A DNA stretch of 40,596 bases from Gammaproteobacteria bacterium. Its GTDB lineage: Bacteria > Pseudomonadota > Gammaproteobacteria > SZUA-140. The stretch is taken from assembly GCA_021648525.1 (NCBI GenBank), contig JAKISP010000038.1, positions 1-40,596 of the forward strand, given 5' to 3'. Below the pieces are notes generated by a model. The model had not been told where the DNA came from and searched no databases. It saw only the letters and a list, made by a program, of their open reading frames with translations. Positions within the stretch are counted from its first letter, which is position 1; the number at the start of each line of letters is the position of its first letter. Both the position numbers and the translations under genes were made by a program. This document shows positions 22,873 to 39,859 of this stretch, in pieces.

Positions 22873-23820
22873 ATGGAAAATGACTTTAATGCGCTTAAAG
22901 CGCACATTGAAACCACAATTGTTGGCCAAACCACCCTGATCGAGCGGCTGCTAACCGGCGTACTGGCAGACGGCCACATCCTGCTCGAAGGATTGCCCGG
23001 TCTGGCCAAAACTACCGCCGTACATCAGCTTGCCAGCGGCATGGCGATGCCATTTCAACGCATTCAGTTTACACCCGACCTGATTCCCGGCGACATTACC
23101 GGCTCAGACATCTTTGTGCCGCAAGATGGTCACTTCCAGTTTATCGCCGGGCCGATCTTCAATGAAATTATCCTTGCCGACGAAATTAATCGCGCACCGC
23201 CCAAGGTTCAATCAGCCCTCCTAGAGGCGATGCAGGAACGACAGGTCACCGTTGGCGGCGTCACGCGCCCACTGCCTGATATTTTCATGGTGATCGCCAC
23301 CCAGAACTCGATCGACCAGGAGGGCACCTATCCGCTGCCTGAGGCACAGCTCGACCGCTTTATCATGAAGACACACATCGATTACCCAAACGCGGAGGAA
23401 GAACTGGAAATTCTACGGCGCGCCAATCAGCCAGCCGCCACTAAAAATGCCACCGCAGTACTAAACGCCACCCAGATTGCGGCCGCACGCACAGCAGTGA
23501 GCAAAGTATATATTGATAAAATGCTGGAACGCTATATTGTCACATTAGTCGGTGCAACACGCGACCCATCCCCATGGGACCCAACCCTGGCTCCATTGTT
23601 AGCACGCGGCGCATCACCGCGCGCCACCCTCGCGCTGGCACAAACCAGCCGCGCGCGCGCCTATTTAAACGGGCGTGACTTTGTCGAGCCAGGCGACATC
23701 ATTGAACTAGCGCACGATGTACTCAATCACCGTATCGCATTAAGCTTCACCGCGCGTGCGGAAGGAGTCGATAGCCGCCAGTTGATTAACCGCATCACTG
23801 ATGTCGTGCCCATTCCTTAA
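22873..23820 (+). CDS. moxR: MoxR-family AAA+ ATPase
   Basis: 315 residues. Walker A GLPGLAKT (40-47), Walker B IILADEINRAPP (99-110), sensor 1 ATQN (142-145), then YPLPEAQLDRF with the arginine-finger region and the C-terminal lid with RARAYLNGRDFVEPGDI. MoxR proteins act as chaperones that activate VWA-domain partners. Here they are followed by DUF58 and two VWA proteins, the standard MoxR-Bat layout. First gene of a tightly packed operon running to 29712. Confidence 0.93.
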   Translation: MENDFNALKAHIETTIVGQTTLIERLLTGVLADGHILLEGLPGLAKTTAVHQLASGMAMPFQRIQFTPDLIPGDITGSDIFVPQDGHFQFIAGPIFNEIILADEINRAPPKVQSALLEAMQERQVTVGGVTRPLPDIFMVIATQNSIDQEGTYPLPEAQLDRFIMKTHIDYPNAEEELEILRRANQPAATKNATAVLNATQIAAARTAVSKVYIDKMLERYIVTLVGATRDPSPWDPTLAPLLARGASPRATLALAQTSRARAYLNGRDFVEPGDIIELAHDVLNHRIALSFTARAEGVDSRQLINRITDVVPIP

Positions 23821-23828
23821 CCCACACA

Positions 23829-24737
23829 ATGTACGACCATGCCCAACAGCAAGCGCTGCTATCCACTGCCGAGCTAGAACAGCTACAGCAGAGTGTATTG
23901 CAACGCCGCCAGCACCAGCGGCTGCCTCTCGACACCCCGTACGCAGGCGCATTTAATTCACTACACCGCGGCCACGGCATGGAACTGTATGATGTGCGCC
24001 CCTACCAGGCGGGCGACGACATACGCCACATGGACTGGCGCGCCACCGCACGCAGTGGCAAACCGACCAGCAAGGTATTTCTGGCCGAACGCCAGCGTAG
24101 CCTTTTCCTGGTCATTGATCGCCGACCGTCGATGCAATTTGGTAGCCGTGTCGAATTGAAAGCAACGACTGCCGCACGTTGCGCGGCGATTCTCGCCTTC
24201 GCTGCTCTCGCCGCGCGTGAACGCGTCGCAGGCGTTGTACTTGGCAACGAAGCGCAATTTTTTTCATCATCGCAAACGCTCGAAGGAACATTGCCTCTGT
24301 TGCAAGCTGCCGCAGCTCCACTGAATAACACGACACAAACCAGGCCACCGGCACTCAACGCCCTCTTTGAAAAAATAAGCCACACCGCTGAACGCGGTAG
24401 CTCGCTCATGTTAATTAGCGACCTGCATGACATCAAAGAGAGCGATCAACCAGCGCTGCTCGATATCGCATCACGTTTCGAATCCATCGCACTGCGCATC
24501 ACCGACCGCGCCGAAGAGAAACTGGAAGCCTGCGGTAAAATTCGTCTCGTCTCACCATTAACCGGCAACAGTCACATCATCGATACCAACAACGCAACAC
24601 TGCGCGAGGCCTATGCCGAAACGATGCAACAACGTCGCGGCGCACTTGAGCAACTATGCCAGCGCAGTCAACTGCCACTGCACACCCTCTATAACCATCG
24701 CGATACATTGCAACAGTTGGTTCAACTTCAGTGTTAG
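23829..24737 (+). CDS. DUF58 VWA-like protein
   Basis: 302 residues, soluble. The DUF58 hallmark RPYQAGDDIRHMDWRATARSGKP lies at about residues 57-79 and is followed by the degenerate VWA fold LFLVIDRRPSMQFG and LMLISDLHDI. The canonical MIDAS DxSxS is altered (DRRPS). DUF58 proteins are regular partners of MoxR, possibly an adaptor with the VWA membrane proteins. It starts eight bases after the moxR stop. No clear ribosome site is seen, suggesting coupling. Confidence 0.88.
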   Translation: MYDHAQQQALLSTAELEQLQQSVLQRRQHQRLPLDTPYAGAFNSLHRGHGMELYDVRPYQAGDDIRHMDWRATARSGKPTSKVFLAERQRSLFLVIDRRPSMQFGSRVELKATTAARCAAILAFAALAARERVAGVVLGNEAQFFSSSQTLEGTLPLLQAAAAPLNNTTQTRPPALNALFEKISHTAERGSSLMLISDLHDIKESDQPALLDIASRFESIALRITDRAEEKLEACGKIRLVSPLTGNSHIIDTNNATLREAYAETMQQRRGALEQLCQRSQLPLHTLYNHRDTLQQLVQLQC

Positions 24738-25294
24738 CGGACAGCAATACGCCATTAGCTGCGCCGCTGGTGGAATCAACACCACTCACGGATACGATTG
24801 CACCGCCAATCAATCATGCGCTGATCCTTGATCGCCTCGCCGACGTACAGCTCCCGGCCGAGCCCATGTTATGGCCAATATTCGTCTTCATCGTCGTCAT
24901 GCTAATAATCATCGCACTCATCTATCTCGGCTACCGCCGATACCAGTCGCCCCCCCCCGCCCAACCAGACAGCCATGCACAACAGGCGCTTGAAAAGCTG
25001 ACCATCGTTGAGAGTGCGTGGGCGAATAACGAAATCGATGCACGTGAAGCCGCGTATCGACTTAGCACGCTACTTCGCCTTGGGCTTAACCTGCCACAAC
25101 TCAACCACCACTGCCCATCGGCCCTGGCGGATAGCAGTCAGGCATGGCAACAGACACTCGCACTATTTAACCAACAACGATACCAGCCCGCTACGACACC
25201 ACTGCTCACCAGCAATACATTTGACCAATTACGGCAGTGGTTAAGCACATCGCCATACGCCAGCGCCAACAAACCAGGTGAAACAAATGTTTGA
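24731..25294 (+). CDS. DUF4381 membrane protein
   Basis: 187 residues from GTG at 24731, which overlaps the stop of the DUF58 gene (GTGTTAG). A single membrane helix lies at about 45-67 (MLWPIFVFIVVMLIIIALIY), preceded by a short periplasmic part and followed by a cytosolic helical domain with AREAAYRLSTLLRLGLNL. This is the DUF4381 pattern found between DUF58 and BatA in proteobacterial Bat operons. Function is unknown. Confidence 0.85.
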   Translation: MLADSNTPLAAPLVESTPLTDTIAPPINHALILDRLADVQLPAEPMLWPIFVFIVVMLIIIALIYLGYRRYQSPPPAQPDSHAQQALEKLTIVESAWANNEIDAREAAYRLSTLLRLGLNLPQLNHHCPSALADSSQAWQQTLALFNQQRYQPATTPLLTSNTFDQLRQWLSTSPYASANKPGETNV

Positions 25295-26294
25295 GTTCGC
25301 CACCCCATACTGGCTACTGCTGTTACCACTGCCATACCTGTTATGGCAATTCACTGCTCACACCAAAAAACCAGCGAGCATCAGCCCACGCCATCACGCA
25401 GTCGCCGCCATTCGTCATAGCCAGGCGGAACTGCTAATACAGCTTGCCAATGCAAGCCACAAGAAGGCACGCTTACCGTGGCTATGGATACTCGGCTGTG
25501 CGCTGCTGTTTATCGCGGCAGCACGCCCACAATGGCTATATAATGATGAACCAGTCAAACGCCCCGCTCACGACATGATGCTTGCCGTCGACATCTCTGG
25601 TTCGATGCTGGCACAGGACTTCATTCACGAAAATGACCTCACCAGTCGTATCGATATTTCTAAAATCATGGCGCAACAGTTTATCAAACAACGTGATGGC
25701 GACCGGGTCGGTTTAATCGCCTTTGCGGATGATGCCTTTGTCTTTATGCCGCTCACCACCGACCTGATAATGGCACACGATTTTCTCGACGAGATTCATA
25801 ACGGCCTTGCTGGTGAACGAACCGCACTGGGTGATGCCATTGCGCTCGCCGCCGACCACATGAGAGAACGCTCGGCTAAATCACGTATCCTTATTTTACT
25901 CACAGATGGCAGCCACACCACCGGACATGTCAGCCCTGAATCTGCCATACTGCTCGCACAGCAATATCAACTGCGCATCTATACCATCGGTGTCGGCACC
26001 AACAGCATGGTCGCCTTCCCACGTGGCCCCAAACAGCAACCGCTCTATACTGAGTTGCCATTAGATGAAACGCTGCTACAACGCATCGCAACAGAGACTG
26101 GCGGGCGTTACTTTCATGCCAATGATACGCAGACACTACAGGCAATATTTAATGACATCGATCAACTTGAACCCACCAACATTGATGACCCAACATTGAT
26201 TCCACGTGACGAATGGTTCTGGTTACCACTATTACTAGCATTATCACTGCTACTGCTTAATGAACGCAATACGCGGCAGCAGGTACTGCCATGA
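25287..26294 (+). CDS. batA: BatA-like VWA membrane protein
   Basis: 335 residues from ATG at 25287, which follows an AGGTGA ribosome site; a GTG nine bases earlier is less likely because family members begin MFEFATPYWLLLLPLPYLLW. Two N-terminal membrane helices flank a basic loop, then a VWA domain with an intact MIDAS, DISGSM (Asp102, Ser104, Ser106), and LLTDGSHTTG. A C-terminal helix follows WFWLPLLLALSLLLL. BatA is one of the aerotolerance (Bat) proteins. It overlaps both neighbours. Confidence 0.9.
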   Translation: MFEFATPYWLLLLPLPYLLWQFTAHTKKPASISPRHHAVAAIRHSQAELLIQLANASHKKARLPWLWILGCALLFIAAARPQWLYNDEPVKRPAHDMMLAVDISGSMLAQDFIHENDLTSRIDISKIMAQQFIKQRDGDRVGLIAFADDAFVFMPLTTDLIMAHDFLDEIHNGLAGERTALGDAIALAADHMRERSAKSRILILLTDGSHTTGHVSPESAILLAQQYQLRIYTIGVGTNSMVAFPRGPKQQPLYTELPLDETLLQRIATETGGRYFHANDTQTLQAIFNDIDQLEPTNIDDPTLIPRDEWFWLPLLLALSLLLLNERNTRQQVLP

Positions 26295-28090
26295 TAGAGC
26301 ACCTGGATCAATTAACACTGCGCCAACCCTGGTGGCTGCTACTGCTCATCGTACCGCTCGGCATCATGATGGTGCAACAGTTGCGCCCACGCAGCCATCA
26401 ACACACAACGCGACTGGCCCAGTTTATCGCCCCTAACCTATGGCGCTGGCTACTCACTCAACCTCGAAATCCACACCGCTACTCAATATCATGGTTACTA
26501 TCGGCTGCCTGGATGTTAATCGCAATCGCTGCTAGCAGTCCCCACTTTAGTGATAGCAGTGAAAAAAATATCGCGCGCAGTATCGACATTGCAGTCGTCA
26601 TTGATATTTCGCCATCAATGGCCGCGGATGATATCGCCCCAACACGCTTAACACGCGCTAAACTTGAACTGCGTGATTTCACCACTCGCCTGAAAGCAGA
26701 TCGCACCAGTCTCATTGCTTACTCAGGCAACGCCTATAAAGTACTGCCGTTAACTGCAGATCGTGACACATTACACCACTTCAGTGATGCACTGGAAACC
26801 ACGCTCACACGTAGACTCGGTTCCAACCTGGCACAGGGACTTGAACGTGCTATTCAATCACTTGCCCATAGCGAAAAAGAGGGACGGGCAATCGTACTGC
26901 TCACCGATGGTGAAAATTTTAACGCCCATGCAAACATCAACATCGCCAAACGCCTCCATAAAATTAAAATGCCATTAATGATTATGGGCGTAGGTACCTC
27001 AGCTGGCGGCATGGTGCCCAATGAAATGGGCAAACGTCTTCACTACAACGGCGAGGTAGTCGTATCACGATTAGAGGAAGAGGCATTGCAGCAACTCGCC
27101 ACCACTAGCGGTGGTGTCTACACCCCCATGAGTAATGACGATAGTGACTGGGAGTCGATCTTTCGTCAACTCGACAAACTAGAAGCTCTCAACAGTTATC
27201 GAGTCCCATATCAACCACAACAGTTCCAGTTTTTTTCATGGTTAATCGCTGCGGCCATATTACTGTTCATTATTTCCGGTATCAGGCAGCAGCGAGCCAA
27301 TCTTCTTTTGATAATACTCTCTGTATTAATACTTACCCCGCCCTCACCTGCACACGCCACATCACTCTTTGATATGTGGCATGAAAAACAGGCCTTTGAG
27401 GCGCTTTCCGAAAAACGCCATGCTGAAGCTGCTTATCGCTACAGCGAAATCGATAGTTACAATGGACAATCAGGTTATGGTGTCGCGGCATACCGACAAC
27501 AGCAGTGGCAAGTTGCCGCTGATGCATTTAGCCGTGCACTGCTATTTGCAAAAGATGATGCGCAACGTGCGCAGGCCCACTACAACCGAGGTAATGCACT
27601 CAGCCGCATTCAAAAATTCGATGATGCTGCCAACGACTTTGAAACCGCCCTGCACTTTCAAAGTAACTTCTCACACGCTGCACTTAACCTGAATCTGGTC
27701 AATCAAGCACGGATGCAACAAGGGGGTGTTCAGGAAAGTGAACTACAAAAAAAACCGCAAATAGCCGCCCATACAAGCCATGATAATGAGGCGCAACAAA
27801 GCGCATCACAATTGGCATCAACCAGTCAACAGAGTGAACAACGTAACCCACAAAACCAACCAGAGACAGGCGATCACTCTTCTGCCAAAGCCCAACAACA
27901 GACAACGAGTAACGAGCAGCCATCAGCGTTGCCAACGGGTCAAGATGGCGACACTCAGTCAATCAACTGGGACAATGCACTACAACAGGCACAGGCAATC
28001 AACAAACGGCTCGGGCATACGTTCATGAAACAGCGTTTCTCTTTACAAGAAGAAGGTATCAAATTAAAGGCAGAGGAAAAACCGTGGTAA
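26291..28090 (+). CDS. BatB VWA protein fused to BatC-type TPR domain
   Basis: 599 residues. The first 340 residues resemble BatB: two N-terminal membrane helices, VWA MIDAS DISPSM (Asp105, Ser107, Ser109), LLTDGENFN, and a helix at about 315-350. Residues about 360-480 contain TPR repeats (HAEAAYRYSEID, QVAADAFSRALLF, YNRGNALSRIQKFDDAANDF), the BatC part, then a Gln/Ser/Thr-rich low-complexity stretch to about 570. In Bacteroides BatB and BatC are separate genes; fusion is common in proteobacteria. It overlaps batA by four bases. Confidence 0.88.
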   Translation: MIEHLDQLTLRQPWWLLLLIVPLGIMMVQQLRPRSHQHTTRLAQFIAPNLWRWLLTQPRNPHRYSISWLLSAAWMLIAIAASSPHFSDSSEKNIARSIDIAVVIDISPSMAADDIAPTRLTRAKLELRDFTTRLKADRTSLIAYSGNAYKVLPLTADRDTLHHFSDALETTLTRRLGSNLAQGLERAIQSLAHSEKEGRAIVLLTDGENFNAHANINIAKRLHKIKMPLMIMGVGTSAGGMVPNEMGKRLHYNGEVVVSRLEEEALQQLATTSGGVYTPMSNDDSDWESIFRQLDKLEALNSYRVPYQPQQFQFFSWLIAAAILLFIISGIRQQRANLLLIILSVLILTPPSPAHATSLFDMWHEKQAFEALSEKRHAEAAYRYSEIDSYNGQSGYGVAAYRQQQWQVAADAFSRALLFAKDDAQRAQAHYNRGNALSRIQKFDDAANDFETALHFQSNFSHAALNLNLVNQARMQQGGVQESELQKKPQIAAHTSHDNEAQQSASQLASTSQQSEQRNPQNQPETGDHSSAKAQQQTTSNEQPSALPTGQDGDTQSINWDNALQQAQAINKRLGHTFMKQRFSLQEEGIKLKAEEKPW

Positions 28091-29712
28091 GGCATCATCT
28101 ATTCCCTGTAGTGGTTACACTGTTGCTTGCGCTCTTTAATACCGTGCTAAGCGCCGCGACACTTGAAGCGCACGTCGATAAAAAACAGCTCATTATCAGT
28201 GAGCACATCACCTTAACGCTCGCATTAATCAATAGCGATACACGCCTGCGCGCACAGGGTATCGACCCCAACATTGACCTGACCCTGTTAACGGATAACT
28301 TTGAACTGAGTATTCCACAGGCAAGTAATCGTTATAGCCCGTTCAGAAATCGAGGACGCTCCAGCTCAGAAGTGACCGTCACGCTGTTTCCCAAAAGAGC
28401 AGGCGAACTCACCATTCCCCCCTTTACGGTCGATGGCGAAAGCTCAAAACCGATCATCATCACGGTGCTGCCAACAAGCGTTGAAAACAGACCACTCGCA
28501 TTTACTCGAAGCGGTGCTATAAAGAGCGCGCTCTGGTTACGCGAACAGACCATTGTCTATCTCGATCTTTACCACCGCGTTGAACTCAAGAGTGCAAAAC
28601 TGGGCGGCCCGATTGAAAGCGAACCAAAACTACAGATTCAGCTGAATCAGCTACCCCAGTCTGATCGTACCGAAGAACATAATGGTGTCAGCTATAACGT
28701 GACTCGTACCGCCTGGGCAGTTGCACCCGCCATTAATCAAACCATTCATTTATATCTGCCTGATGCCTGGGTTGAAACAGCCACGGGTGAACAGCTGCGC
28801 TTCCCCTTTAATGACATCACAATCGAGGCAATGCCACTACCTGAAGAGGTGCCACCCCATGCCATCATTGGAAAACCGCTGTTAACACAATCAACCATTA
28901 ACCATGAGATCACTCAACACCAGAGCTTTCAACTATTGATCACATTGCAGGCGGCAACAAGCCTTATTAACCTTTCACCAACACCCCCATCTATCCAGTT
29001 TCCGGCAGGGCTAAAGGTCTACTCAGAAAGTGACACACGTAAAATTGTAGCGGGAAGCCTTGATGGCAGTAGCACCGTCACCTACCGTTACTTCATCATG
29101 CCATTACAAGCGGGGGCCTATCGTATTCCCGATGTAACGATCCCCTATTTTGATCCAGAACGCTCTGCCATGTCACAGGTAACACTAGTCGGACAGCAAT
29201 TCACCGTCATTTCAGCACCGCTGCCAGTTGCTCAAAATACGCCTGCCAGTGAGAAATTGCCCATTCAGACATTCGCAGAAAATGAGCCCACGAATTCAGC
29301 ATTATCCTGGCAATTGGCCACATTCATTATTACCCTCGCATGGTTAACCACCGCATTAATCTGGTGGCATCAACATCAGCATCACCGTGCTACTAAAATA
29401 GAATTCGTTCAATCAACACCGTCGGTAGAAGACACGATCCACCCATTACAAACCCAGCTGTTAGCAGCATTCGACACACGTACGCTCGACCAGGGGCGAC
29501 AGCAGTGGGAAGCTCTGCACGGAGTAGATGATGCAATGCGCGCCACTATCATCCAGGTACAACAGCACTACTACAGCCAACAAAAAAGTGATCAGGCTAA
29601 CGAACATTTACAAAAACAGGTCAACAGTCTTTTACAGAAGATTAAGAAAAAACAGATCATAGAAGATCATAGCGATAGCTGGCGACCCGAGGCATTTACA
29701 GCAAAAAAGTGA
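28084..29712 (+). CDS. batD: BatD-like oxygen tolerance protein
   Basis: 542 residues. Signal peptide, then tandem Ig-like periplasmic domains beginning with AHVDKKQLIISEHITLTLAL and including GIDPNIDLTLLTDNFEL and the FPKRAGELTIPPFTVDG motif, which marks BatD. A C-terminal membrane helix (about 409-430) is followed by a cytosolic tail with Gln/Lys-rich helices. BatD is a large surface component expected to contact BatA and BatB. It overlaps batB by seven bases and ends the operon. No strong terminator follows. Confidence 0.88.
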   Translation: MVRHHLFPVVVTLLLALFNTVLSAATLEAHVDKKQLIISEHITLTLALINSDTRLRAQGIDPNIDLTLLTDNFELSIPQASNRYSPFRNRGRSSSEVTVTLFPKRAGELTIPPFTVDGESSKPIIITVLPTSVENRPLAFTRSGAIKSALWLREQTIVYLDLYHRVELKSAKLGGPIESEPKLQIQLNQLPQSDRTEEHNGVSYNVTRTAWAVAPAINQTIHLYLPDAWVETATGEQLRFPFNDITIEAMPLPEEVPPHAIIGKPLLTQSTINHEITQHQSFQLLITLQAATSLINLSPTPPSIQFPAGLKVYSESDTRKIVAGSLDGSSTVTYRYFIMPLQAGAYRIPDVTIPYFDPERSAMSQVTLVGQQFTVISAPLPVAQNTPASEKLPIQTFAENEPTNSALSWQLATFIITLAWLTTALIWWHQHQHHRATKIEFVQSTPSVEDTIHPLQTQLLAAFDTRTLDQGRQQWEALHGVDDAMRATIIQVQQHYYSQQKSDQANEHLQKQVNSLLQKIKKKQIIEDHSDSWRPEAFTAKK

Positions 29713-31499: not shown

Positions 31500-31530
31500 C
31501 TAAAATGGGCCTTTTAAGGCTCTATTTTAG
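31500..31530 (+). terminator. Hairpin after the outer membrane gene
   Basis: CTAAAAT (31500-31506) pairs with ATTTTAG (31524-31530) and GCC (31509-31511) with GGC (31518-31520) in a 31-base hairpin 89 bases after the stop. There is no U-run, so it is a weak terminator candidate. The remaining gap to 31801 has no gene or promoter I can support. Confidence 0.3.
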
Positions 31531-31801
31531 CCCCTTATACTGTTCATACCAGGAGTGGTTTAGATCCGAACCGAATCGAGAAGGGTGCGGTGAGGGATGC
31601 TTCCCAGTTGGAGAAAGGGTAATTCGTCCGTTTTTGTTGCTCGCCTGTATCGTGCAAAAATCTCAAAATATATGTGAATATTAACGTGATAGATAAAATT
31701 TTCTGGAGTATTCTTGGCAGAAGCGAATCATAAGCTGTTTGTGAACGGGATAACACTGCCATGGAGGGCGGCCACTATTTCATTTTAATAAGGATACTCG
31801 G

Positions 31802-33706
31802 ATGTTCGGCGCGGGGTGTAATAGTCATCATAAAAAGCCAGTACTATGGTTTATTTTGATGGCATGTTTTTGCATATCGGGGGTTTCTGCTGGGGTTTAT
31901 GCGCAGGAAAACAGTGTTGAATCCGTTTCTACACAGACCATCACCTCTTATGTATCCCGTGCAGCGCGGGCGAAACAACAGGGTCAATGGTTACTAGCAG
32001 CACAGGCACTGGCGGATGCCGCACGACTCACATTGAAAAATGGCCAGTGGGATAAAGCAAAAGAGCTGGCTTACCAGGCACTGTCTATCCCTCATGATGG
32101 CCTGACACCACATGAAACCGCTTATTTATTGATCAATCTCGGCCGCACTCTGGCACAGATTGATGAACAACTTAACGATCCCAGCCACAGCTTACGTTTA
32201 CAGGCCTTCCACCTGTTTAACAAGGCCACAAAAATGGCCACTCGGGCTAATGATATTAAAGCTCTCTCTTACGCGCTGGGTTATACCGGCGAGCTTTTTG
32301 AAACTGAGAAACGCTACCCGGAAGCCTTGACCTTCACCCGTAGGGCCATTTTCCATGCGCAACAGGCCGACGCAACGCAGTCGATGTTTCTGTGGCAATG
32401 GCAAAGAGGTCGATTGCTGGCGGCATCCGGTCAGCGCAGTGTAGCGGTGGATGCCTATCGGCAGGCCATTAAGCTATTACCCAGTTTTTCTTTATCATCA
32501 ATGGGTGAAATTTCCACCGAGCGACTCTATTTGCAGTTGGTCGATCTGTTGTTAAAAGAGGCACAGCAGAGTCGGGACAATATAACAAAGGCCACGCTGT
32601 TACGTTCTGTGCGAGATTTGGTGGAGCAGATGAAAGCCGCGGAGTTACGCGACTATTTTCAGGATGAATGTGTCGATAAGTTGCAGGCAAAGGTCAAAGA
32701 TGTCAGTAAAGTATCCGCCACCGCCGTCGTGATTTACCCAATAATGCTTGAAGATCGGCTGGAGCTGCTGCTGGATTTCCCCAGTGGTGAGATGAAACGT
32801 TACAGTGTACCGGTTGACAACAATACGCTTTCTGCTGAAATTCACCGCTTTCGCCGCCTGCTGGAAAAACGCACCACGAACCAGTATCGCCCCCACGGAG
32901 AACAGCTATATGAGTGGTTGATCGCCCCATTTAAAAATGAGCTGGAATCTTTAAGTATTGATACCCTGGTATTCGTTCCAGATGGTGCGTTACGCACTAT
33001 CCCGATCGCAGCACTTTATGATGGTGAGCAGTTTTTAATCGAAAAATATGCTATCGCAACCACCCCGGGGGTGAAGCTGACTGACCCAGCACCACTGAAT
33101 CGTCGCCAGATTAAGCCACTCTATGTCGGGTTAAGCCGATCTGTACAGGGGTTTCCCGCGCTTGAGTCTGTCCCTGAAGAGCTAAAGGGCATCAATGATC
33201 TATATGATGGCAAGTTGTTGCTGGATGAAGACTTTACGCAAACTCAATTCAAAGATGCACTGGCCGACAGACAACTCAATGTGCTGCATATCGCGACGCA
33301 TGGAAAGTTTTCGGGTAATGCAGATAGCAGTTTCATCCTGACTTATGACGGTCGTTTGAGCATGAATCAGCTGGCAGAACAGATCGGGATGTTCAAGTTC
33401 AGGAAACGACCTCTGGAACTGCTGGTGCTGAGTGCCTGCGAAACGGCTCAGGGTGATGAGCGGGCAGCACTGGGGTTATCGGGCATGGCGATAAAAGCAG
33501 GTGCGCGCAGTGTGGTGGGTACGTTATGGAAAGTGGATGATATTGCGGCATCACAACTGATTCGTGATTTTTACCGACAGTTGCAAGACCCGCAAGCATC
33601 GCGCGCTGTCGCGATGCAGCGCGCCCAGCAGGCGATGTTAAACGATATGCGTTTCCGCCACCCGGGTTACTGGTCAGCCTATCTGCTCATTAATGGCTGG
33701 TTATAA
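31802..33706 (+). CDS. Secreted TPR-CHAT domain (caspase-like) protein
   Basis: 634 residues. A signal peptide or anchor (about 13-35, ending VYAQE) sends it to the periplasm. TPR-like helical repeats follow (about 45-260). The C-terminal CHAT domain starts around 380 (VFVPDGALRTIPIAALYDG) and holds the catalytic dyad: His500 in HIATHGKF and Cys546 in LSACETAQGDE, then KAGARSVVGTLWKVDD. CHAT proteins are clan CD cysteine peptidases related to separase and caspase. Export is common for CHAT proteins next to TPS exoproteins. RBS AAGGA sits seven bases before the ATG. It overlaps the cyclase gene. Whether it cleaves is untested; the dyad is intact. Confidence 0.9.
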   Translation: MFGAGCNSHHKKPVLWFILMACFCISGVSAGVYAQENSVESVSTQTITSYVSRAARAKQQGQWLLAAQALADAARLTLKNGQWDKAKELAYQALSIPHDGLTPHETAYLLINLGRTLAQIDEQLNDPSHSLRLQAFHLFNKATKMATRANDIKALSYALGYTGELFETEKRYPEALTFTRRAIFHAQQADATQSMFLWQWQRGRLLAASGQRSVAVDAYRQAIKLLPSFSLSSMGEISTERLYLQLVDLLLKEAQQSRDNITKATLLRSVRDLVEQMKAAELRDYFQDECVDKLQAKVKDVSKVSATAVVIYPIMLEDRLELLLDFPSGEMKRYSVPVDNNTLSAEIHRFRRLLEKRTTNQYRPHGEQLYEWLIAPFKNELESLSIDTLVFVPDGALRTIPIAALYDGEQFLIEKYAIATTPGVKLTDPAPLNRRQIKPLYVGLSRSVQGFPALESVPEELKGINDLYDGKLLLDEDFTQTQFKDALADRQLNVLHIATHGKFSGNADSSFILTYDGRLSMNQLAEQIGMFKFRKRPLELLVLSACETAQGDERAALGLSGMAIKAGARSVVGTLWKVDDIAASQLIRDFYRQLQDPQASRAVAMQRAQQAMLNDMRFRHPGYWSAYLLINGWL

Positions 33707-35651
33707 GATGATGCAGATGGTCAAAATAATCCATTCAAAACCCATCGCGGCCACCAGTATCGCGCTGTTTATATTTGGCATGGTGGTGGGTATACGCCAG
33801 CTCGGCCTGTTACAGGAACTGGAGCTTGCGCTGTATGATTTTCACCTAAAATCTAACACCATGGCGAGTGTTAGCGGCTCGCCCGTGCTACTGATCAGGG
33901 TTTATGAATCAGATATCCGGCGGCTGGGTTACCCCATTGGTGATGATTCACTGGCCCGGGCGCTGCATCTGCTGGATGAACAAGGGGCGCGCGCGATCGG
34001 CGTCGATCTCTATCGTGATTTCCCGACTCAGGGGCATCAAGCGTTGCGCGCCGCGGTTAACCACATCCCGCAGGTGGTGATGATTGAGAAGCGCCTCGGT
34101 GAAGCGGTCCCTCGACCCGGCTTTATAGAAGAGGCTAACCAGGTCGGTTTTTCTGATCTGAAACAGGACAACGGCGGGGTGATCCGTCGAGGTCTATTGA
34201 TGGTATGGGATGACGATGGCCAGCCTTATTTCTCGCTGGCGTTGCAACTGGCGCTTAAATATCTACAACATTTCAACATTACGCTCACGGCGGACCCCGC
34301 TGACAAATCATATATCAGGCTTGCCGAGACAACCATACCGCGTTTTGACGGCAATGATGGCGGTTATCAACATGCGGATGAGGGTGGGTACCAGATGTTG
34401 CTGGATTATGAGCAGGGCTCCACGCCCTTCTCTTCATACTCTTTATCGCAACTACTGAATGGTGAATTGAGTGCCGCACAAATTCGCGGGCGGGTGGTTC
34501 TTCTGGGCATGACGGCCGCCAGCGTGATTGATCGGCATGAGTCTCCATTGAGTACCGGCTGGGGCGCAGCCCACTCCCGTTATGGCCTTGAAATCCAGGC
34601 CCATATTGTGGACCAACTAATCAGAGTGGCGTTACACCACGATGCACCACTGGCAACACTGGCGGAAGCCATGGAGATTTTCTGGATCGCACTGGCCGCT
34701 ATTTTAGGCGCCGTACTGGGGGTCTGGATTCAGCGGCCGTGGCTGCTCATCGTCTTGATAACGGCAGGGGTTGCGCTGTTATGGGCGTTAACGCAATATA
34801 TATTTTTCAAGGGACTCTGGTTTCCGGCGCCGCCCGTCGCGCTTGCCTATATTGGCACCCTGGCGCTGGCCACTCTCTATTGCGCGCAGCGTGAACATGC
34901 CGAACGTGAACTGATCATGCGTCTGTTTGGTAAATTTGTTGCGCCTGAAGTGGCGACCATGCTGTGGCAGCAACGTGAACAGTTTATGGCAGAGGGCAGG
35001 CCACGTCCGCAGCGCCTCACGGTGACCGTGATGATTATTGACCTGCAAGGTTATACCTCACCCATAGAGAGTATGGACCCCGCCATTGCCATGGAGTGGA
35101 TTAATCGCTACCTGGATGCCATGACCTGCATTGCAGCAGAACATGGCGGCATTGTGGATGATTATGCGGGGGATGGCATCAAAGTGAATTTCGGGGTGCC
35201 CATTGCCAGAGAAAGCGAGTCTGAAATCAGAGAGGATGCACGGCAGGCGGTGAATTGCGCGCTTGCAATGGGCGCCACGCTCGGCCATCTTAATGATGAA
35301 CTGAGCAGTGATGATCTGCCGACCTGTCGCCTGCGGATTGGCATCTGCTGCGGCGTAGCGATTGCCGGCAACCTGGGCAGTGCCCATCGGATGAAATACA
35401 CCACCGTGGGCGATGTGATCAATACCGCGGCTCGTCTGGAAAATTTTGATAAAGAGGCCTTTAAAAGCGATCAGACACACAATTTTCGTATTTTGGTAGA
35501 TGAAGGCGTTTATCGCTATTTGAAACCCGCATACCACACTACCTCGCTGGGGCAATGTCATCTGCGGGGTAAAAAAAGGGAGATCACGGTTTATCGCATT
35601 TGGGATAAACATAGTGACGTTGTTGAAGCACATAAGGAGGTCATGAAATGA
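33693..35651 (+). CDS. CHASE2 sensor class III adenylate/guanylate cyclase
   Basis: 652 residues from the ATG overlapping the CHAT gene by 14 bases; starts at 33708-33717 are equally possible. One N-terminal helix (about 15-35), a periplasmic CHASE2 domain (about 40-320, with GARAIGVDLYRD and RGRVVLLGMTAAS), three membrane helices (about 328-405), then a class III cyclase domain (about 445-625). Metal-binding Asp lies in MIIDLQGYT and GDG (Asp494); MKYTTVGDVINTAARLE is the nucleotide loop. The residue where adenylate cyclases usually have lysine is Asp490. It should turn an envelope signal into a second messenger. Confidence 0.9.
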   Translation: MAGYKMMQMVKIIHSKPIAATSIALFIFGMVVGIRQLGLLQELELALYDFHLKSNTMASVSGSPVLLIRVYESDIRRLGYPIGDDSLARALHLLDEQGARAIGVDLYRDFPTQGHQALRAAVNHIPQVVMIEKRLGEAVPRPGFIEEANQVGFSDLKQDNGGVIRRGLLMVWDDDGQPYFSLALQLALKYLQHFNITLTADPADKSYIRLAETTIPRFDGNDGGYQHADEGGYQMLLDYEQGSTPFSSYSLSQLLNGELSAAQIRGRVVLLGMTAASVIDRHESPLSTGWGAAHSRYGLEIQAHIVDQLIRVALHHDAPLATLAEAMEIFWIALAAILGAVLGVWIQRPWLLIVLITAGVALLWALTQYIFFKGLWFPAPPVALAYIGTLALATLYCAQREHAERELIMRLFGKFVAPEVATMLWQQREQFMAEGRPRPQRLTVTVMIIDLQGYTSPIESMDPAIAMEWINRYLDAMTCIAAEHGGIVDDYAGDGIKVNFGVPIARESESEIREDARQAVNCALAMGATLGHLNDELSSDDLPTCRLRIGICCGVAIAGNLGSAHRMKYTTVGDVINTAARLENFDKEAFKSDQTHNFRILVDEGVYRYLKPAYHTTSLGQCHLRGKKREITVYRIWDKHSDVVEAHKEVMK

Positions 35652-36370
35652 AGTCTTTAATTAATTTCACAGTGCTTATGGTGGCTATCTTATTGCCACT
35701 GCACAGCCACGCAGCCGATCAGTACCAGGCGCCCAGCAAAGAGCAAGTCGGGGTAAAGCCGTTGCCAATGGCTTTAGTGCCATACGTGCCGCCTAAACCG
35801 ATTAGACCCATCCCGAAAATTCGCACCAGTCAGGGCGGCACACGGGGTTGTGGCGGGTTTCCGGTCGTCACACTGCTGGCCCCTGAACATGTGGGGCTGA
35901 CCACACAGGCACAACCACAACTCTATTGGCATACCTCTGCCATGAGTCAAAAACCTGCGGTGGTGACGTTGAGCCACCATGCAGCAGTCGAGCCGCTGCT
36001 TGAGTGGCATCTGCCAGCGCCGATTGATCCTGGCATTCATGTCATCGATATTGCAAAACACGGCATTCATCTGCAAGTCGGTAAAACCTATGAATGGTCA
36101 CTGCGGATCAACTGTGGCGCAGAGGGAGGCGCGGCGGGTGACCTGGTGGTGAAATCATATATTGAACGGATTGCCGCCGATGAAGCGGCCAGGTTGATGG
36201 CACAACGCGATGACCCGCTCACGGTAGCCAATGCACATGCCAGCAGCGGTATCTGGTACGACGCACTGACCACCCTCCACGTGGCATGGGGCAACAATCC
36301 TGGGGATCACACCTTGCAATCGGCATGGAGTGGCATGCTGGAACAGGTGGAATTAACACAACCTTACTAA
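35648..36370 (+). CDS. DUF928 periplasmic protein
   Basis: 240 residues. Signal peptide (cleaved after SHA), then the DUF928 pattern TRGCGGFPVVTLLAPEHVGLTTQAQPQLYWHTS, a beta-sandwich core, and the typical W.L.I.CG segment (YEWSLRINCGAEG). A helical C-terminus (ERIAADEAARLMAQRDDPLTVANAHASSGIWYDAL) resembles a short repeat. DUF928 proteins accompany CHAT, CHASE2-cyclase and TPS genes in cyanobacteria and sulfur bacteria. AAGGAGG lies seven bases before the ATG, and the gene overlaps the cyclase stop by four bases. Function is unknown. Confidence 0.85.
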   Translation: MKSLINFTVLMVAILLPLHSHAADQYQAPSKEQVGVKPLPMALVPYVPPKPIRPIPKIRTSQGGTRGCGGFPVVTLLAPEHVGLTTQAQPQLYWHTSAMSQKPAVVTLSHHAAVEPLLEWHLPAPIDPGIHVIDIAKHGIHLQVGKTYEWSLRINCGAEGGAAGDLVVKSYIERIAADEAARLMAQRDDPLTVANAHASSGIWYDALTTLHVAWGNNPGDHTLQSAWSGMLEQVELTQPY

Positions 36371-36423
36371 TGAGTGCACTGATTAGTAACTGGAAATATT
36401 GATTAAACAACAAGGAAAAAATC

Positions 36424-37347
36424 ATGAAATTTAATAAAGCGTTTATTGCAGTCGCGGTTGTACTGCTGCTCATTCTTCTGTTTGTAATACTAAACAATAA
36501 AAGCAGTAAACCAGAGGTGGTAACGGTAAATTGTAATCACGAGTCACTATCCACAGTGGTAAAAAACGCCAAAACCGGCACACGCATCAAAGTAGTGGGT
36601 GAGTGCCGGGAAAACACCCCGGTGGTGATTACGCAGAATAATATGGTCATCGTGGGAGAGGGACAAACGATCACCGGCAATGGCAGCGCTTCCGTCATCG
36701 AGGTGCGCGGTGCAAAAAATGTCATCATTAGTGGTTTGACGTTGACCGGTGGCAAGCACGGTATTTTTATCGATAAAAATTCTTCCGTTGTATTAGGTGA
36801 TCTTCATGCGACGAAAAATACCGGGAGTGGCATTGCGATTGGCAGTGATGTCCCGTTTAAGTTTCCAGGTACGGGTGTAAAGGGCCCAACATCTGTACCG
36901 GATGTTAAACAAAATATTGATGAAGTAAAGCAAAGCCCTGTCACGCAGATGTTAAATAAATGGGATTTTTCATTTATAAAATCTGCGGTGGCGGATGATG
37001 ATGTTTGTTCAACTTTCGGCAGGGTCATTGAAGATCTTTCTACGTCTGAAAACATACTACTGACGATAGGTGATACCGCTTTTATTTGTGGAACAGTCAC
37101 TGTCACTACTAACGGTGTTGGAGTCTCTGTGCTTGAAGTCAGCACACTGATAATCTATGACATTTTAACAATGGTGGATAACAGTAGAGCAGCGATGGTA
37201 GTACGTATAACCTCTGCAGTCGATGTTTATAGCGGTGCAACAGTCACAGAAAGTGGCAATCTATTTGGAATAGTGGTGTTTGAAGATGATGGTTCTGGTA
37301 TCGACATTGATGATGGCGGAATTTTCCCACCTATTACGCCCATGTAA
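36424..37347 (+). CDS. Membrane-anchored parallel beta-helix protein
   Basis: 307 residues. One N-terminal anchor (about 7-25), then a right-handed beta-helix: repeated short strands with Asn/Gly turns (MVIVGEGQTITGNGSASVIEVRGAKNVIISGLTLTGG), a 60-residue insert with proline and lysine (about 143-195), then further strands (VFEDDGSGIDIDDGG). Fold and Asn ladders resemble pectate-lyase-like repeats, but no catalytic residues for a lyase are visible. AAGGA precedes the ATG. It lies 53 bases after the DUF928 gene, same strand, and probably belongs with it. Confidence 0.75.
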   Translation: MKFNKAFIAVAVVLLLILLFVILNNKSSKPEVVTVNCNHESLSTVVKNAKTGTRIKVVGECRENTPVVITQNNMVIVGEGQTITGNGSASVIEVRGAKNVIISGLTLTGGKHGIFIDKNSSVVLGDLHATKNTGSGIAIGSDVPFKFPGTGVKGPTSVPDVKQNIDEVKQSPVTQMLNKWDFSFIKSAVADDDVCSTFGRVIEDLSTSENILLTIGDTAFICGTVTVTTNGVGVSVLEVSTLIIYDILTMVDNSRAAMVVRITSAVDVYSGATVTESGNLFGIVVFEDDGSGIDIDDGGIFPPITPM

Positions 37348-37407
37348 AAATAAAAATGACCGGTAATCAATGGAGTTTCATCCTGCTGTTTTATCTCTCC
37401 GTGCGAT

Positions 37408-37473
37408 CGCATCACAGGCGAAGCCACCGTGATTTAAGAGCGGATTAATTCACGTGAGTATCCGCACAGGCAC
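37408..37473 (+). pseudogene. Fossil of a second TPS-domain gene
   Basis: The frame at 37408 reads RITGEATVI, a stop, ERINSREY, and PHRH. The functional gene has RVTGEASVIYGEINSREFGEAH at 38007-38072. About 15 of 22 positions match, including the invariant TPS box NSRE. Outside this patch the similarity fades. This is a remnant of a duplicated TPS exoprotein gene, not an unrelated coincidence. Nothing else in the 37348-37735 gap is recognisable. Confidence 0.6.
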
Positions 37474-37735
37474 ACGTAAAACATGCGCCTGGAAGGGTCC
37501 ATTGGGCGTGGAAACGCGATACAAAATATTGATGTGCCTCAATGTCAATCGATCTACGGGAAATTGAGGTGCGGTATTGCGTGCATGCTGCGCCAGTAAA
37601 GGGGTAGTATTGATTGAGGGTGATGCGACGAAAGAGATTCTATATCATCGAATCATCGATTGTTGATGATCCCGCCGAAGCTTAGCATCGCGAATACAGC
37701 AAGGCATTTGCAAGGGAAGAGAGTGAACTTTAAAG

Positions 37736-39859
37736 ATGAATAAAGCTTTTTACCCGGCTCTATATCTATGCCTCAGCGCGATGAGTTTTGCCGCTTATTG
37801 CCAGGGGACAAACATCACCTCTTCTGGTTTGGGGACGAATATAAACCTGCCGAGGGAGGATGGAGGGGCCTCTTTTTACGACATTACCAGCACCAGCAGG
37901 CGGGGTGAAAACCTGTTTTTCAGCTTTGACCAATTCAATGTGGGTGAAGGGGATGTGGCCAACTTCATCAATCCCGATGCGCTGAATATTAATAACATCA
38001 TCAGTCGCGTTACGGGGGAAGCCTCCGTGATTTATGGCGAGATTAATTCACGTGAATTTGGCGAGGCCCATTTCTTTTTGATCAATCCCAGTGGCATCAC
38101 TTTCGGGCAGGGCGCCACCCTGAATGTCGGTGGCTCTTTTCATGTGTCCACCACGGATAGCATCGTCTTCCAGGATGGGGCGGTGTTTTCGGCAGCGCTG
38201 TCTGGCCCGGCCACGCTCTCCTCCGCCGTGCCGCTCTCCTTCGGGTTTCTGGAGAGTAGTGTTGCCGCAATAACGATTGAAAATGCGCGGCTGGAACCTG
38301 ATCCAGGCAAAACATTATCACTGGTGGCTGCGGATATAATACTGGTTGGCGGTGAACTGAGGGTCACCGATGGCCTGATCAACATTGAAGCGCAAACGCT
38401 TTTAATGGATAACCAATCGATATTGAACTCATCCACAGTAGCAGGCAGCGCGCCAGGTAGCGAAAAAGATGGGATTATTATTAACCTGCTTGATCATCTG
38501 GCGCTGAAAAATGGCTCTCAAATAACAAGTAACGTAAGCACTGAAGGGATCCATGCCAATGACATATCCATTATTGTTGACAGTGGTGAGATTAAAATAG
38601 CCGGTGAGTTCATTGATTTTTTCTCTAACATCTCGAGTCAAATCAGTAGCAGTGCAAGCCGTGGTGGCATCGCCGGCAACATCGCTATTACCGCTTCAAA
38701 ACTCGAGTTAACGGATAGCGGAAGAATACAGGCAACCAGCAGCGGCTTGAGCGAACAATCTGAAGCAGGTGATATCACGCTATGGGTGGATGAATTAACC
38801 ATCGATCAAGGAGGTCTAATTGCAAATCGTACCACGGGCAGTGGCGCAGGGGGCACTATCACCATTAATGCTAATACGATCAATATCAGTGGTGAAACCC
38901 CGGCCATTCTGAGCGCAACCAAGGGGCGTGGTAACGCGGGCAATATTATGATTCGGGCCAAAGAGCACCACCTGGCAATTAAAGGCAATGGCACGATATC
39001 GGCAGAGAGCATAAGCGGCGCTACCGGCAGTGCTGGCAGCATCACGATTGAAGCGGCAGATCTTTTGATTACTGATGAGGTGACGCTCAGCGCTAACACA
39101 TCGTCAGTCGGCCGGGGTGGCAGTATCAGCGTGAACGGTGACAATATTGAGATCAGCAACGGCGCAAACCTCACGGCTGAGAGCCTGTTTGTGCCAGATA
39201 GTCTGCCCCTCGGGAGCGATGCTGGTGCTGGTTTGGGTGAATCCGGCAGCATTTCTGTTACCGCGAGCAATCAGCTGATTCTTGATAATAGCCGTATCAA
39301 TTTAAACACCCAGCAAACCGATGCGGGCAACATCGTGATTCGTGCCGGTCGCTTGTTTCGCATGGTGAATCAGTCTGAAATCACCACATCGGTAGCGGGT
39401 GGCGATGGCGATGGCGGCGACATCCGCATTAATGAGGTGATTGATGCCAATATCGTGATTCTGAGTGACAGCAGCACCCTTCGCGCGAATGCGCGGCAGG
39501 GGGCGGGTGGCAATATCAATATCAAGGCCTATGCATACATTATCTCGCCCGACAGCGTGATTGATGCCTCCGCAGGCCCGGCCGGGCTTGATGGTGTGAT
39601 CACAGTGACCACCCCGGATGTTGATGCCACCACGGGTATTTTGCAATTGCCCGAATCATTTCTCGACCGTTCGGCGCTACTCGAAAATCGTTGTGCAATG
39701 CGCACTGCGAGTAACCGCAGTAGCTTCTTGATTAGCGCCAGGGGCCGTGAGCCAGGCCCGGATGCATTGTTAGTCAGCGATATTCCAACCCTGATTTCAA
39801 CCCAGGGTGAGCTGCCCAGCACAGAAATGTTAGCACAGCTCACAACGCGGTGCTGGTGA
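37736..39859 (+). CDS. Two-partner secretion exoprotein (filamentous haemagglutinin N-terminal domain)
   Basis: 707 residues. Signal peptide (about 1-22), then the TPS domain (about 25-200): GTNINLPREDGGASFYDI, FFSFDQFNVGEGDVANF, and the NSREFGEAHFFLINPSGITFGQGATLNVGG block. Beyond it lies a beta-helical stalk made of repeats with SGSAGSITIEAADLLITD-type units, and a C-terminal DRSALLENRCAMRTASNRSSFL segment typical of these proteins in cyanobacteria and Beggiatoa-like bacteria. It needs an outer-membrane TpsB (FhaC/ShlB-like) partner, not present here. Weak ribosome site. Last gene of the CHAT-cyclase block. Confidence 0.9.
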   Translation: MNKAFYPALYLCLSAMSFAAYCQGTNITSSGLGTNINLPREDGGASFYDITSTSRRGENLFFSFDQFNVGEGDVANFINPDALNINNIISRVTGEASVIYGEINSREFGEAHFFLINPSGITFGQGATLNVGGSFHVSTTDSIVFQDGAVFSAALSGPATLSSAVPLSFGFLESSVAAITIENARLEPDPGKTLSLVAADIILVGGELRVTDGLINIEAQTLLMDNQSILNSSTVAGSAPGSEKDGIIINLLDHLALKNGSQITSNVSTEGIHANDISIIVDSGEIKIAGEFIDFFSNISSQISSSASRGGIAGNIAITASKLELTDSGRIQATSSGLSEQSEAGDITLWVDELTIDQGGLIANRTTGSGAGGTITINANTINISGETPAILSATKGRGNAGNIMIRAKEHHLAIKGNGTISAESISGATGSAGSITIEAADLLITDEVTLSANTSSVGRGGSISVNGDNIEISNGANLTAESLFVPDSLPLGSDAGAGLGESGSISVTASNQLILDNSRINLNTQQTDAGNIVIRAGRLFRMVNQSEITTSVAGGDGDGGDIRINEVIDANIVILSDSSTLRANARQGAGGNINIKAYAYIISPDSVIDASAGPAGLDGVITVTTPDVDATTGILQLPESFLDRSALLENRCAMRTASNRSSFLISARGREPGPDALLVSDIPTLISTQGELPSTEMLAQLTTRCW

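Follow-up and report, generated by a model that had tools for sequence, protein, structure and literature searches.

The locus considered here joins the gene of an exported CHAT peptidase to that of a two-partner secretion (TPS) exoprotein bearing a two-cysteine C-terminal tail. It lies at positions 31,802 to 39,859 of a 40,596-nucleotide stretch of gammaproteobacterial DNA (SZUA-140 lineage; assembly GCA_021648525.1, contig JAKISP010000038.1), hereafter the window, which is an entire contig (G000:C68), so that the 3' side beyond the TPS gene is cut. The source genome is close to the Thiotrichaceae metagenome-assembled genome NORP103, the CHAT proteins of the two being 89% identical. Five open reading frames are found on the + strand where an initial annotation of this DNA had placed them. 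They encode an exported TPR-CHAT cysteine peptidase of 634 amino acids (31802..33706; PF12770, E-value 3e-64, 217.6 bits), a 652-residue protein that combines a CHASE2 periplasmic sensor with a class III nucleotide cyclase (33693..35651; PF05226, 2e-50; PF00211, Guanylate_cyc, 7e-14), an exported DUF928 protein of 240 residues (35648..36370; PF06051, 2e-30), a small membrane-anchored beta-helix-like protein of 307 residues (36424..37347) and a 707-residue TpsA exoprotein with an N-terminal TPS domain (37736..39859; PF05860, 9e-32; TIGR01901, 1e-17). The Pfam matches of the CHAT, CHASE2-cyclase, DUF928 and TPS proteins all clear their cut-offs comfortably. The CHAT and CHASE2-cyclase genes overlap by 14 bp and the CHASE2-cyclase and DUF928 genes by 4 bp, and the beta-helix-like gene follows after 53 bp. 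The spacing had thus been described correctly for the first four genes, but a gap of 388 bp before the TPS gene had gone unmentioned. In that gap a 51-bp stretch (37407-37457) shares 80% identity with positions 38005-38055 of the TPS gene and is likely the remnant of a lost TpsA duplicate.

The CHAT domain with its His/Cys dyad places the first gene product among the CHAT peptidases of clan CD, and proteolysis is predicted. The dyad had been reported as intact, and all 86 aligned proteins indeed have both His500 and Cys546. Hydrophobic N-terminal segments are present in the CHAT, DUF928 and beta-helix proteins of the window, in keeping with the export or envelope location first proposed for them, and export signals occur in 70 of 76 CHAT proteins and 62 of 65 DUF928 proteins. 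The AlphaFold model of the CHAT protein (pLDDT 86) matches separase (Z 25.0), gingipain R (17.8-18.0) and, at Z 30.6 over 521 residues, the TPR-CHAT protein of the type III-E CRISPR Craspase complex, Csx29, with which it shares the TPR plus CHAT architecture. Unlike Csx29, the window protein is exported and, in the loci seen, CHAT is linked to TPS rather than cas genes; it scores 21.8 bits against the NCBIfam Csx29 model NF041237, for which the cut-off is 300. In a profile search of PDB sequences, the listed matches fell in the TPR part. The very long CHAT frames examined (in G303, G155, G521, G512 and G125) were considered as TPS-CHAT fusions, which would be Rosetta-stone evidence, and were rejected because they contain no TPS domain.

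A new observation is the two-cysteine tail shared, on alignment, by the exoproteins of CHAT loci. More specifically, these TpsA proteins have in common a C-terminal block some 65 residues long (consensus G..G.V.I..P......G....LP....DA..LL..RCAA.....SSFV..GR.G.P..P...L.S), from which a variable linker leads to a second cysteine. The order is an invariant first cysteine (Cys1), a block of the form SSF..GR..P.PGG and a second cysteine that in most cases falls 2-4 residues from the C-terminus; the two cysteines are usually 50-96 residues apart. Cys1 is present in 62 of 62 aligned rows of related TpsA proteins and the terminal cysteine in 94% (the rows include near-copies), and a basic residue occurs in the SSF..GR block of 34 of 37 tails. 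The window TpsA carries this tail at 39584..39856 on the + strand (profile A2, E-value 5e-24); Cys653 (codon 39692-39694) and Cys706 (codon 39851-39853), the latter its second-last residue, are its only cysteines outside the N-terminal leader. Seven classic TpsA proteins encoded in the same genomes have neither the block nor a terminal cysteine.

The distribution of the tail among genomes follows that of CHAT. Among 369 genomes of Gammaproteobacteria (in the GTDB sense), CHAT was found in 15 of the 17 with a tail and in 41 of the 352 others; when genomes with TPS proteins are compared, the figures are 14 of 14 tailed versus 12 of 107 untailed. Eight of the 17 tailed genomes had fed rows into the tail profile, and with these excluded CHAT is present in 7 of 9. 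In the two tailed genomes in which CHAT was missing (G117 and G382), the tailed gene is cut by a contig end and the assemblies are fragmented or incomplete. The 148 genomes of Nitrospirota give the same picture, with CHAT in 28 of 28 tailed genomes versus 25 of 120 others, and for 51 of 57 tail sites a CHAT gene is no more than 15 kb away. Of the tailed TPS domains there, 50 of 56 are near CHAT, compared with 1 of 46 untailed. The p-values for the association range from 1e-11 to 1e-21 and are nominal given the relatedness of the genomes; the two phyla agree. The proposal of the initial annotation that CHAT processes surface proteins can thus be narrowed from surface proteins in general to TpsA proteins bearing this one C-terminal tail, with which CHAT is associated.

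The wider gene set is also conserved. When 84,980 species genomes were scanned with the CHAT alignment, 80 loci were found in Gamma-, Beta- and Alphaproteobacteria, Nitrospirota, Acidobacteriota, Verrucomicrobiota and others; many of these are Nitrospira, and the search patterns came from operonic CHAT proteins, hence the scan covers a single CHAT type and not all CHAT proteins. Of these loci, 27 have 5 kb or more of sequence on each side; 26 of them contain TpsB, 25 TPS, 24 DUF928 and 8 CHASE2, and the commonest neighbours of CHAT on the same strand are DUF928 and TpsB. A class-wide search for DUF928 found it in 12 of the 369 gammaproteobacterial genomes, in independent loci most of which have CHAT, CHASE2 or TPS around it. 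Plasmids of Nostoc, Calothrix and Brasilonema carry CHASE2 or 'adenylate cyclase', DUF928, CHAT and one to several TPS genes, with a D15-type TpsB in one case, and TPS-CHAT is present on plasmid A of Trichormus variabilis ATCC 29413. This grouping is far above chance, and the CHAT, DUF928, TpsA, TpsB and sensor components almost certainly belong to one system. The view of CHAT, DUF928 and TPS proteins with a sensor as a single envelope system is therefore upheld across many phyla.

A TpsB gene, for which a search elsewhere had been suggested, was found on another contig (G000:C32; PF03865, ShlB/FhaC family, E-value 3e-32) next to a divergent gene for a CRP-family protein of 229 amino acids. 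With a TPS-domain TpsA in the window and a TpsB in the genome, the locus has the sequence hallmarks of a two-partner (type Vb) secretion system, and export is predicted. In the sister species TpsB adjoins the TPS gene, and two loci (L074 and L075) show the contiguous order CHAT, CHASE2, DUF928, beta-helix, TPS, convergent TpsB and divergent CRP-like gene. In a TpsB tree, a branch with support of 98/97 parts the CHAT-linked proteins of several phyla from classic TpsB proteins, which come partly from the same genomes and have long branches. One genome (G051; L156-L162) contains some ten TpsA genes at scattered places, of which most have the tail and several lack the terminal cysteine, but a single TpsB; its many exoproteins may share one transporter.

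The second gene product has the CHASE2 and cyclase domains that the initial annotation assigned to it, and membrane segments flank the sensor on both sides, as expected for a periplasmic domain. Both metal-binding Asp residues and the Asn/Arg motif of class III cyclases are present. The adenine-specifying Lys position reads Asp in the window clade (VDDYAGDGIKVNFG) and Lys in several relatives, and the nucleotide specificity of the window-clade enzyme may be altered. In most Nitrospira loci an ABC_sub_bind protein, a GAF/HAMP histidine kinase and a sigma-54 response regulator stand in place of the CHASE2-cyclase; thus the sensor module is, by gene content, exchangeable, while CHAT, DUF928, TpsA and TpsB are constant. 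The cyclase therefore keeps its assigned place in the envelope system, but as one of two interchangeable regulatory modules. The swap can be seen, for example, at 12867-17669 of L102 and in about 22 other loci, mostly Nitrospira.

A CRP-type palindrome, TGTGAACGGGATAACA, lies at 31740..31755 on the + strand, 62 bp before the CHAT start codon, and has one mismatch to TGTGA-N6-TCACA; neither this site nor the CRP-like regulator figures in the initial annotation. An exact form is found upstream of CHAT in L073 (-62), L074 (-64) and L075 (-89), the last two having an unrelated spacer, and no CRP palindrome is found upstream of CHAT in L020. L120, L151 and L152, all of which carry the CRP-like gene, likewise have exact palindromes, and none was found in loci with the ABC_sub_bind/histidine kinase module. 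Over the whole window the number of CRP sites equals that expected by chance (19 observed versus 21 expected at up to 2 mismatches), so that only the conserved position before CHAT carries weight. The CRP-like protein encoded beside TpsB retains a phosphate-binding motif (..GELALVDEAPRSA..) and the recognition helix SREMVSR, which we take, from knowledge of E. coli CRP, to indicate cyclic AMP (cAMP) binding and TGTGA recognition, respectively. In the Competibacter-type loci the CRP-like gene is followed by a gene for a protein of about 220 amino acids (L151 5316-5978; L152 16137-16823) with a perfect CRP palindrome between the two; the protein matches no Pfam family (L151 copy tested). Upstream of the palindrome in the window, a terminator-like stem-loop with a T-run (31507..31522, + strand), a pattern match only, divides the locus from the preceding gene; such patterns in the region overall are not above the count in shuffled sequence. 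Promoter hexamers were rarer than in shuffles, with none on the + strand before the operon.

The DUF928 protein is modelled by AlphaFold (pLDDT 85) as an Ig/Fn3-like sandwich with C-terminal helical hairpins. The C-terminal Ig and TPR domain of MtxA (4z29) is the best fold match, at Z 10.1 compared with 6.3 for the next best. The two proteins are only 13% identical, with no sequence-level match, and searching PDB sequences with a DUF928 profile returned nothing. MtxA is said to be linked to magnetosomes. In magnetotactic bacteria mtxA also precedes a CHASE2-cyclase gene (PMC4439547). The MtxA-like fold, together with this independent pairing of mtxA with a CHASE2-cyclase, points to DUF928 as the periplasmic partner of the CHASE2 domain. 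The fourth protein matches no Pfam family and reaches only a sub-threshold score against NosD (beta-helix), and its gene is found in 3 of 80 CHAT loci. Gene content thus indicates that it is a local addition rather than a core component, and its inclusion in the system by the initial annotation is not sustained.

A known parallel is found in CdrA-CdrB and LapG-LapD of Pseudomonas aeruginosa. In some TpsA subfamilies a disulfide-bearing periplasmic C-terminal domain locks the protein in the TpsB pore (PMC5422565), and cleavage of the periplasmic CdrA tail by LapG releases CdrA (PMC5422565, PMC11898600). The likeness would lie in a C-terminal cysteine hook that holds TpsA in TpsB, a periplasmic cysteine protease at the tail, and an inner-membrane protein that has a periplasmic domain and is tied to a cyclic nucleotide on its inner side (PMC5422565, PMC4694147, PMC11898600). 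The window TpsA has the two cysteines of a CdrAB-type hook, Cys653 and Cys706, and a disulfide between them is predicted. The differences are that the window protease is a CHAT protein of clan CD and not of the LapG family, that the CHASE2-cyclase is predicted to make a nucleotide while a LapD-type sensor binds one, and that the genes of the CHAT system share one locus in most relatives. We know of no counterpart of DUF928 in the CdrA-LapG-LapD system. The HMW1 and HxuA anchors likewise have a two-cysteine periplasmic C-terminal anchor; the CHAT-linked tails differ from them in cysteine spacing, in the conserved block between the cysteines and in having a dedicated peptidase.

On this evidence, the locus is read as one copy of a distinct two-partner secretion subtype in which the TpsA tail serves as a hook, CHAT cleaves it and a sensor provides feedback, a reading to which we assign a probability of about 0.5. 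Its parts are apparent from the genes themselves: a dedicated TpsB, a TpsA with a conserved two-cysteine tail, TPR-CHAT (dyad intact) and DUF928 proteins that are both exported, and a sensor in the membrane that has a transcriptional output. That CHAT cuts the TpsA tail is about an even proposition, and is proposed because the logic would be that of CdrA and LapG with other parts, the LapG family (PF06035) having no match in 20 of the 22 genomes tested, the source genome included. One of the only two genomes with a LapG-family protease is G117 (73% complete; G117:C30, equal to L185, and G117:C199), which is tailed and in which CHAT went undetected; a protease swap is possible there, or else an assembly gap. 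In the proposed mechanism, TpsA would be threaded N-to-C through TpsB and its tail kept in the periplasm, where the Cys-Cys loop would act as a hook in the TpsB pore until the periplasmic CHAT protein bound and cut the tail, releasing or remodelling the surface protein. A candidate cut site, a guess from the preferences of clan CD, is the basic residue of the ..SSF..GR..P.PGG.. block after Cys1. DUF928 might act as a periplasmic adaptor linking CHAT or the tail to the CHASE2 sensor; the cyclase would convert the state of the envelope into cAMP, and a CRP-like protein acting at the palindrome at 31740 would set the level of the CHAT-CHASE2-DUF928 operon. In most Nitrospira, two-component control by the histidine kinase and sigma-54 regulator would take the place of cAMP and CRP. 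The system probably controls whether a tailed surface protein stays on the cell or leaves it. The fuller version, a cross-phylum retention-and-release machine in which each exported, caspase-fold CHAT protein cuts the cysteine-hook tail of its own TpsA under cAMP-CRP or two-component control, is put forward more tentatively.

Several points weigh against this reading. The sensor step cannot be general because CHASE2 is absent from most Nitrospira loci, and the product of the window cyclase is uncertain because Asp stands at the purine-site position where class III adenylate cyclases have Lys. Three of 37 tails have no basic residue at the proposed cut site, which weakens a strict rule of cleavage at Arg. 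TpsB and the CRP-like gene are off the contig in the source genome, their adjacency to the other genes being seen only in relatives. A tail of the HMW1 type can anchor a TpsA without any protease, and the substrate of CHAT could be something other than the tail. The tail might accordingly be only an anchor of this kind, with CHAT a quality-control or stress protease that clears TpsA and TpsB when they stall or jam, while DUF928 and CHASE2 sense the jam. The tail-CHAT linkage would fit the clearing of stalled tailed substrates equally well as programmed release, and a sensor with a transcriptional arm suits a stress response; a general protease, however, would not be expected to be confined to one type of TpsA, yet just 1 of 46 untailed TPS domains is near CHAT, and we regard this explanation as rather unlikely.

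Similarly improbable is a signalling role, in which CHAT would cleave DUF928 or CHASE2 in a relay resembling site-2 or anti-sigma systems upon success or failure of TpsA secretion, thereby switching the cyclase. The overlap of the CHAT, CHASE2 and DUF928 genes in the window is in its favor, as is the rank of DUF928 and TpsB as the commonest same-strand neighbours of CHAT, and Csx29, the closest fold, is a CHAT protease whose role is that of a signalling switch. Most Nitrospira loci, however, dispense with CHASE2 and yet keep CHAT and the tail, and it is the tail, not CHASE2, that is the most constant partner. The idea that the beta-helix protein ranks equally with the other parts and is a target of CHAT draws on the gene order of the window and on a second copy of the gene in the sister species; the 3 of 80 loci speak strongly against it and exclude the protein as a core part. 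Least probable of all is a conflict or defence system with CHAT as suicide effector and the cyclase as a Pycsar-like alarm. Weak PADLOC matches to BovA (CHAT, E-value 2e-7) and PycC (cyclase, 2e-17) can be put down to the CHAT and cyclase domains that these proteins share, and the components are exported or membrane-bound and stably linked to TpsA and TpsB; a defence system was therefore rejected.

Elsewhere in the window, the genes at 22873-29712, upstream of the locus, include one for a BatD protein and look like a MoxR/Bat-type cluster, the order of which is kept in the sister species (L016); as far as seen, it is unrelated to the CHAT/TPS locus. At the contig end (40107-40596) the sequence resembles, by eye only, a gene for a REP-associated (repetitive extragenic palindromic; Y1-type) transposase with an internal stop, and a repeat of this type may explain the contig break before TpsB.

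Two-partner secretion systems, CHAT peptidases and the protease-controlled release of TpsA proteins are each already known singly. In the literature searched, outside which most subscription papers lay, neither a TPS subtype with the tail, CHAT and DUF928 nor anything joining CHAT domains with two-partner secretion was found, and DUF928 was named in a single paper. Cyanobacteria, Nitrospira and sulfur bacteria have many CHAT peptidases and tailed TpsA proteins, for which, to our knowledge, no envelope partner or substrate is known. The association of tail and CHAT provides a directly testable pair of enzyme and substrate, and DUF928 gains a context and a probable fold. If the proposed reading is true, the system would be an independent invention of the role played by LapG-LapD and cyclic di-GMP, a second and unrelated route to regulated adhesin release that is tied to cAMP or two-component signalling instead of cyclic di-GMP, and exported CHAT peptidases would gain, in the tails, a first class of physiological substrates.

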